NCBI GenBank assembly: GCA_027485645.1
Contig: JAIXQR010000007.1
Span: 248,001 to 312,000, forward strand
Length of the DNA stretch: 64,000 nucleotides
Reading direction: 5' to 3'
From: a bacterium
GTDB taxonomy: Bacteria > Armatimonadota > Fimbriimonadia > Fimbriimonadales > Fimbriimonadaceae
The translations under genes were made by a program, and so were the position numbers. The notes under the pieces were generated by a model, which saw nothing but the letters and a program-made list of their open reading frames with translations, was not told the origin of the DNA and did no database searches. Positions 18,931-19,367 of the stretch are shown piece by piece (the first letter of the stretch is position 1; every line of letters begins with the position of its first letter).

Positions 18931-18970
18931 GTTCGGGTTAGTTCGGTTTCGTTCGGGTTGGTTCGGGTTT
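18931..18970 (+). repeat. Tandem array of four 10-bp GTTCGGGTTN units (left arm)
   Basis: Four contiguous 10-mers: GTTCGGGTTA, GTTCGGTTTC, GTTCGGGTTG and GTTCGGGTTT. The array ends one base before the stop codon of the four-helix-bundle gene and is inverted relative to the repeat at the other end of that gene (19330-19367). Confidence 0.85.
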
Positions 18971-18971
18971 G

Positions 18972-19349
18972 TCACTCGTCTGCGGCTCGAAGAATAGATC
19001 GCTCTAAGTTCGAGAGCATTGACCCAATCTTCGTGCAGTCTTGTCTCAGTGCCGTCGTTCCCGCGAGAAAGTTCAGGTCCTCACAAATCAGTAAGAGTGT
19101 TTCGAGCTCGTTTACCGAGCCTTTAGCTATCCGCAAAAACTGCGAGTAGCTCTTTGCCGATTTGCGACCGTAACCTTCCGCGATGTTGCAGGGAATCGAG
19201 ATTGCCGCGCGCCTTAACTGACCGGTCAAGCCAAACTGCTCCGACTTGGGTAAGTCGGCAGTGACCGAGTAGATCTGTTTAACCAGCTCTCTCGATGCTT
19301 GCCAAACGGACAGATTCTGGTAGCTCAACGAATCCCAACTCCCGAACAA
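18972..19349 (-). CDS. Four-helix-bundle protein, 23S rRNA IVP/Avd-like
   Basis: 125 residues, all alpha. The N-terminal SYQNLSVWQASRELVKQIY, then SEQFGLTGQLRRAAISIPCNIAEGYGR and the later SYSQFLRIAKGSVNELETLL blocks are the hallmark of the four-helix-bundle family (TIGR02436) found in 23S rRNA intervening sequences and related to the Avd accessory protein of diversity-generating retroelements. No reverse transcriptase or variable region is present here. The start is TTG 19349, lying at the edge of the flanking repeat; the stop abuts the repeat at the other end. It interrupts the groES-groEL operon in the same direction. The molecular role is unknown. Confidence 0.85.
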   Translation of the reverse strand: MFGSWDSLSYQNLSVWQASRELVKQIYSVTADLPKSEQFGLTGQLRRAAISIPCNIAEGYGRKSAKSYSQFLRIAKGSVNELETLLLICEDLNFLAGTTALRQDCTKIGSMLSNLERSILRAADE

Positions 19350-19367
19350 ATCCGAACTAATCCGAAC
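19330..19367 (-). repeat. 10+10+18 bp repeat, right arm next to the IVP-like gene
   Basis: On the minus strand: GTTCGGATTA, GTTCGGATTT, then the 18-mer GTTCGGGAGTTGGGATTC. The same 10+10+18 design recurs at 26516-26553 and 39287-39324. GCGCT lies 7 nt before the first unit. The 18-mer also encodes the first codons of the four-helix-bundle protein. Confidence 0.85.

Follow-up and report, generated by a model that had tools for sequence, protein, structure and literature searches.

The window analyzed here, a 64,000-nt stretch of DNA, carries a gene of the IVP family (PF05635) in the gap between groES and groEL. Its profile score of 122.7 bits stands against a cut-off of 33.8, its TIGR02436 score is 118.7 against a cut-off of 24, and the closest solved structure that we found is XCC0516 (PDB 2gsc, 1.3e-22), a homopentamer of four-helix bundles (PMC4990558). 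The gene is bracketed by two inverted arrays of the 10-bp unit GTTCGGRTTN, both detected independently by TRF, and the locus is composed as follows.

17271-18896, minus strand: groEL (Cpn60), downstream neighbor of the IVP gene, identity confirmed
18931-18970, plus strand: array arm of 4 x GTTCGGGTTN, downstream of the IVP gene, units reading inward
18945-18972, no strand assigned: left half of the best inverted repeat (28 nt, 89%), partner 19346-19373
18972-19349, minus strand: IVP-family gene (PF05635 / TIGR02436), 125 aa from TTG 19349 or 118 aa from TTG 19328
19330-19367, minus strand: array arm, upstream and overlapping the IVP start, units reading inward
19346-19373, no strand assigned: right half of the best inverted repeat, partner 18945-18972
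19388-19678, minus strand: groES (Cpn10), upstream neighbor of the IVP gene, identity confirmed

The left arm consists of four units, GTTCGGGTTA GTTCGGTTTC GTTCGGGTTG GTTCGGGTTT, with one change in the second, and is immediately followed by the IVP stop codon (18972-18974), while the right arm reads GTTCGGATTA GTTCGGATTT GTTCGGGAGTTGGGATTC on the minus strand from 19367 to 19330. The TTG at 19349 that opens the reading frame lies inside the right array; translation could as plausibly begin at the TTG at 19328 (MSYQNL...). Between them the two arms make an inverted repeat of 28 nt at 89% or 33 nt at 82%, and when the region was folded as single-stranded RNA its ends paired, with an energy of -175 kcal/mol compared to -140 kcal/mol in shuffles (z -5.7). 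The profile, TRF and inverted-repeat evidence thus confirms the initial annotation in placing a real IVP-like gene within inverted 10-bp repeat arrays between groES and groEL; the imperfect pairing of about 30 bp that it had proposed around the gene is possible, and the family score supports its view of an IVP relative residing in an mRNA operon. The window arms do not contain the four GGG runs per arm expected of a G-quadruplex.

A genome-wide search of the window's genome (G000) for the arms, as the initial annotation had suggested, found GTTCGGRTTN arrays scattered alone. A two-unit pattern with up to 3 mismatches matched 12 times in the 64-kb window against 0.25 expected (0 of 100 shuffles), and a three-unit pattern with up to 3 mismatches matched 22 times in the whole genome, a few of these being the element's own arms. 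Lone arrays occupy about 15-16 other places, none with an IVP gene, and several are laid out as GTTCGGRTTN-GTTCGGRTTN-GTTCGGGG-GTTCGGRTTTGTTT. Two lie within the window.

26512-26553, minus strand: lone GTTCGGRTTN array with no gene, found by pattern search and TRF
39287-39332, plus strand: lone GTTCGGRTTN array with spacing 10,10,8 and no gene, with a copy at the orthologous site in the closest relative (G014)

A degenerate lone GTTCGG array is additionally present at 42613-42641. The palindromic repeat GGAATTAATTAACGTTCCCCCCCAGGCGATTTAATTAATTACA (window ~39238-39280; L002, L005, L007, L009, L040) often directly precedes a lone GTTCGG array and also occurs in G014 at orthologous sites; a third repeat, the AT-rich palindrome AAAATTTATTTATAAATGCTCCCGCCTTAGG...GGAATGTAAATTT, lies near many lone arrays (L002, L005, L008, L040, L044) and is kept in G014 at L172. 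When lone arrays were compared at orthologous sites of G000 and G014, part were common and part different, and at some sites one array type stands where the other genome has the other type. The window's unit therefore has many non-autonomous copies in its own genome, as expected of a REPIN/RAYT-like flanking repeat, and, at 10 bp, it is also short, tandem, low in copy number, intergenic and dispersed in the manner of intergenic short tandem repeats (STRR/heptamer type). Exactly one PF05635 gene was found in the 3.19 Mb of this genome, and thus no second complete gene-plus-arms copy was seen there. The initial annotation had regarded the lack of any other gene-plus-arms locus, combined with the lack of an empty site, as speaking against a mobile unit; the former holds literally, but empty sites exist in relatives and a sister element with the GTTCGGRTTN unit (L020) occupies a different genomic place in another genus. 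The scattered lone arrays, the arms at most IVP genes and the other IVPs in the groES-groEL gap of relatives had been omitted from that annotation.

Within the genus, five genomes have an empty groES-groEL gap (17-89 bp), providing the empty site that had been anticipated for a mobile unit, and twelve have an IVP in it; flank comparison added seven more genomes of other genera with an IVP in this gap. Empty gaps and close relatives were compared for target-site duplications, but at 75-97% identity the sequences are too diverged to fix the ends of the element. In the closest relative, G014, groES and groEL DNA are 97.6 and 96.4% identical to those of the window, yet the IVP in the gap is only 48% identical and its arms are different, indicating that one of the two IVPs was replaced. 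Testing the armed groESL IVPs for a single origin gave a marginal rejection (p-AU 0.041), with p-AU rising to 0.105 when an Arg/Gly-tailed clade was included, and because of the latter value many groESL IVPs may be vertically old. Independent insertion of each groESL IVP became less likely in view of the occupied gaps in other genera and of this only marginal rejection of monophyly. Collectively, these comparisons lead us to conclude that an IVP has long been common in the groES-groEL gap of the family and has undergone repeated replacement, gain and loss, and we claim no number of insertions.

We then considered whether the IVP is simply a working component of the groESL operon, with arms that are only local regulatory sites. 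Consistent with this, an IVP adjoins groEL or sits between groES and groEL in about 20 of 37 family genomes, and six genomes of the same genus (L090, L091, L093, L094, L095, L099) carry in the gap an IVP without arms that measures 260-324 aa in total wherever complete and has a long Arg/Gly/Asp-rich tail; this form is under purifying selection (dN/dS 0.07-0.25) and looks like a putative domesticated nucleic-acid-binding form. However, close relatives lack an IVP in this gap, sister species carry different IVPs beside nearly identical groEL DNA, and gene plus arms occur likewise in many other gaps, so that we regard this reading as rather doubtful.

One such gap is that between motA and motB, where four genomes of two genera (L016, L050, L059, L067) carry an IVP antisense to the operon; the units differ between copies, and the copy in G002 has an internal stop. 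In two further pairs of loci, L011/L012 and L071/L081, the same gap is occupied in opposite orientation in two species each, with flank alignment stopping at or near the arms, and one of these inverted-in-place elements lies between convergent genes. Recombination between the inverted arms would be the simplest reading of such inversion in place.

IVP-family genes sit inside hairpins of 23S rRNA intervening sequences (IVS), which RNase III removes. An RNA-level element of this kind, as raised in the initial annotation, would have its arms pair and be cut by RNase III, releasing the IVP piece and separating groES from groEL levels. Pairing of the arms is indeed feasible, and the predicted fold joins the ends of the region; among the occupied gaps listed, the IVP always runs in the direction of groESL; and the Coxiella rRNA IVS, the nearest described case, contains an IVP ORF, heptamer direct repeats before it and a 28-bp terminal stem that is cut by RNase III in vitro (PMC4990558). 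The likeness of the window element to the 23S rRNA IVS with IVP (S23p) ORFs in Leptospira and Coxiella thus extends to the protein family, a length of ~400 bp and an ORF between complementary ends; it differs in that the window element lies in a protein operon gap and not inside a 16S or 23S rRNA gene, in that its arms are tandem arrays also scattered alone, and in that RNase III excision here is only putative. RNA may be processed at the arms, which the predicted fold would allow. On the other hand, mismatches between the arms are not skewed toward wobble pairs (82 G-U compatible versus 103 A-C), leading us to reject selection for RNA pairing of the arms, and the antisense motA-motB IVPs, the elements inverted in place between species (one between convergent genes) and the lone arrays without a partner arm are all difficult to accommodate. 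We therefore judge an RNA-level role to be an unlikely account of the element.

To place the window element among its relatives, we scored flank-to-flank complementarity at 70 IVP loci from 60 relatives against swapped flanks and found that 42 exceed every control. A survey across phyla, comprising the 80 best matches to one conserved motif rather than a random sample, yielded 79 scored loci from Bacteroidota, Pseudomonadota, Planctomycetota, Acidobacteriota, Clostridia, CPR, cyanobacteria and others, including Methanophagales archaea, of which 43 exceed the 99th percentile of GC-matched swapped-flank controls. Unit sequence differs from locus to locus; the best period among 84 armed elements is 7 in 69 and 10 in 4, the arms mostly contain 4 (52/138) or 5 (26/138) units, and G exceeds C on the inward-reading strand in 75 of the 84. 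The 10-bp unit of the window is thus a minority form of a general design. Together with the empty gaps in five same-genus genomes, this wide recurrence of gene-plus-arms units supports the proposal of the initial annotation that the locus is a small mobile unit carrying its own protein. The genomes include drafts and MAGs, so copies may be missed. Two general roles for the arms were rejected: G-quadruplex formation, as just 7 of the 63 arms that reach 25 nt have four GGG runs, and termination of translation, with stops in all frames in 23/84 upstream and 20/84 downstream arms. Convergent pairs separated by ~12-14 nt occur among the lone copies (L277, L279). Two inverted array pairs enclosing ~340-370 bp, L152 (G023:C4:246812-247287) and L276 (G031:C9), contain no IVP remnant above noise; L152 additionally contains GTTGGCA and GGTGCGA heptamer arrays.

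We next asked how the array unit relates to the protein it flanks. Between different genomes, IVP protein identity correlates with arm similarity (Mantel r 0.18; 0 of 2000 permutations, p<0.0005). Array units turn over fast, since a unit is common to 48% of IVP pairs at 60-70% protein identity compared to 0.6-3% below 60%. The window IVP and the L020 IVP share GTTCGGRTTN at 57% protein identity, the IVPs of G014, G012 and G025 form one clade with TGGCTTTGCA-like flanks throughout (weak in G012 and G025), and those of G008, G017, G029 and G023 form another with GTTGGCAG.

For four unit families, lone arrays likewise occur mainly where the resident IVP has the matching unit. GTTCGGRTTN gave 21 matches each in G000 and its sister G014, 114 in G023, 2 in G012 and 0 in the other 37 relatives, and TGGCYTTG arrays were found only in G000 and G014. 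GGGARTC gave 356 matches in G031 and 126 in a Phormidium genome; two other genomes had 8 and 6, and the remaining 20 had 0. The IVP arms are GGGAATC in G031 and GGGAGTC in the Phormidium genome, and the 20 genomes free of GGGARTC have arms of other units. GTTNGCA arrays were present in 9 of 61 genomes, among them all five that have an IVP with this unit, and in G029 every GTTGGCA match lies at its own IVP. With own arms excluded, and with genome tallies that we compiled from the four unit searches, Fisher tests gave p values of 0.007 for GTTCGGRTTN, 0.096 for TGGCYTTG (a weak match of dispersal to resident IVP), 0.002 for GGGARTC and 0.0006 for GTTNGCA, combining to 1.5e-6 without kinship correction. 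Nineteen matches in G032 to a reversed control (GGGARTC x3 backwards) represent a dispersed array family of its own.

These data bear on the notion that the arrays are ordinary slippage products or unrelated dispersed repeats and that IVP genes merely land in repeat-rich gaps, making the association indirect. Speaking for such a notion are the abundance of lone arrays in the window's genome and the places, L152 among them, where arrays of different units adjoin or overlap; however, at over half of the loci across phyla the IVP is closely bracketed by inverted arms of the same unit, well beyond what swapped-flank controls give, and the unit follows the protein lineage between genomes. We consider an indirect association highly improbable.

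Another enzyme might instead spread the arrays, either a reverse transcriptase, as for the Avd protein of diversity-generating retroelements (DGRs), or a Y1 transposase, as RAYT does for REPINs. DGR Avd is pentameric. PF05635 has been reported to be homologous to this four-helix bundle (PMC10053308), and Y1 transposases are encoded in most of these genomes. Nevertheless, no RVT_1 (PF00078) was found in the window's genome or in G014, G023, G002, G010, G008 and G017, several of them IVP-rich, setting the element apart from DGRs and leading us to reject a reverse transcriptase as mobilizer; no Y1_Tnp was found in G031, the genome richest in arrays, and a Y1/RAYT transposase is therefore not required. 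We assign this explanation the slimmest probability of those weighed here. The window element does resemble REPIN/RAYT systems in having a single gene between inverted short repeats and many non-autonomous repeat copies elsewhere in the genome. RAYT, however, is a Y1 tyrosine transposase and REPs are palindromes, whereas the sole protein of the window element is PF05635, an unrelated four-helix bundle without a known catalytic site rather than a Y1 tyrosine transposase, and its units are direct tandem repeats.

We favor, as the probable explanation, a small mobile DNA element that consists of an IVP gene between two inverted short-unit arrays and is present in the window as one complete copy. 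At the level of sequence, this explanation draws on the architecture, its recurrence, the link of unit to protein lineage, the lone arrays, the occupied, empty and differently occupied gap, and inversion in place. We infer that IVP, whose relatives form homopentamers, binds as an oligomer to a run of about 4-5 units and brings the two arms together, whereupon host enzymes would copy or recombine arrays, and occasionally the whole element, to new sites. Array-only copies would then be non-autonomous derivatives with the same relation to the IVP gene that REPINs have to RAYT. In the groES-groEL gap the window copy most likely took the place of an older IVP element; it is probably co-transcribed with groESL there and tolerated, and in one clade the arm-less Arg/Gly-tailed IVP appears to have turned into a conserved gene of that gap, an example of an element taken over within the chaperonin operon. 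Counting against a mobile element, the window's genome has just one complete copy, and we know of no catalytic domain in PF05635.

More tentatively, and with somewhat less than even confidence, we propose a distinct and widespread mobile element of bacteria and archaea, in which a probable IVP ring without a known catalytic domain would recognize tandem 7- or 10-bp units, be encoded between inverted arrays and seed lone arrays. The intergenic heptamer repeats of cyanobacteria, xanthomonads and Beggiatoaceae would have their missing parent in such an element, and the rRNA IVS would be a special case of it. Intergenic heptamers have been described as GGGAATC in Xanthomonas and GGGGA(C/T)T in Nostoc (PMC4692102) and as TAACTGA in Beggiatoaceae (PMC4679880). 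Like the arrays reported here, these are short tandem units, mostly in runs of about 4, intergenic, scattered and often in convergent pairs, and the Xanthomonas-type unit GGGAATC itself makes the IVP arms in G031; they differ in that no IVP gene link has been reported (PMC4692102, PMC4679880) and in that the window's unit is 10 bp. Rehm et al. saw no general association of heptamer repeats with mobile elements, and MacGregor speculated that the mobile part could be a repeat-binding protein (heptamer literature PMC4692102, PMC4679880). The link of the Xanthomonas and Beggiatoaceae repeats to IVP is a prediction of our proposal. Our search of the open-access literature turned up no publication that connects IVP genes with these repeats in general, and we regard the novelty of the link as provisional.

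IVP genes have been known since the 1990s, to our knowledge with no function. The association described here joins them to a second loose end, the intergenic heptamer repeats without a known maker, and if IVP does bind or spread the repeats, both become testable. The same association would be a likely reason for the detection of IVP genes near arrays in CRISPR searches (PMC10910872, PMC3936711).
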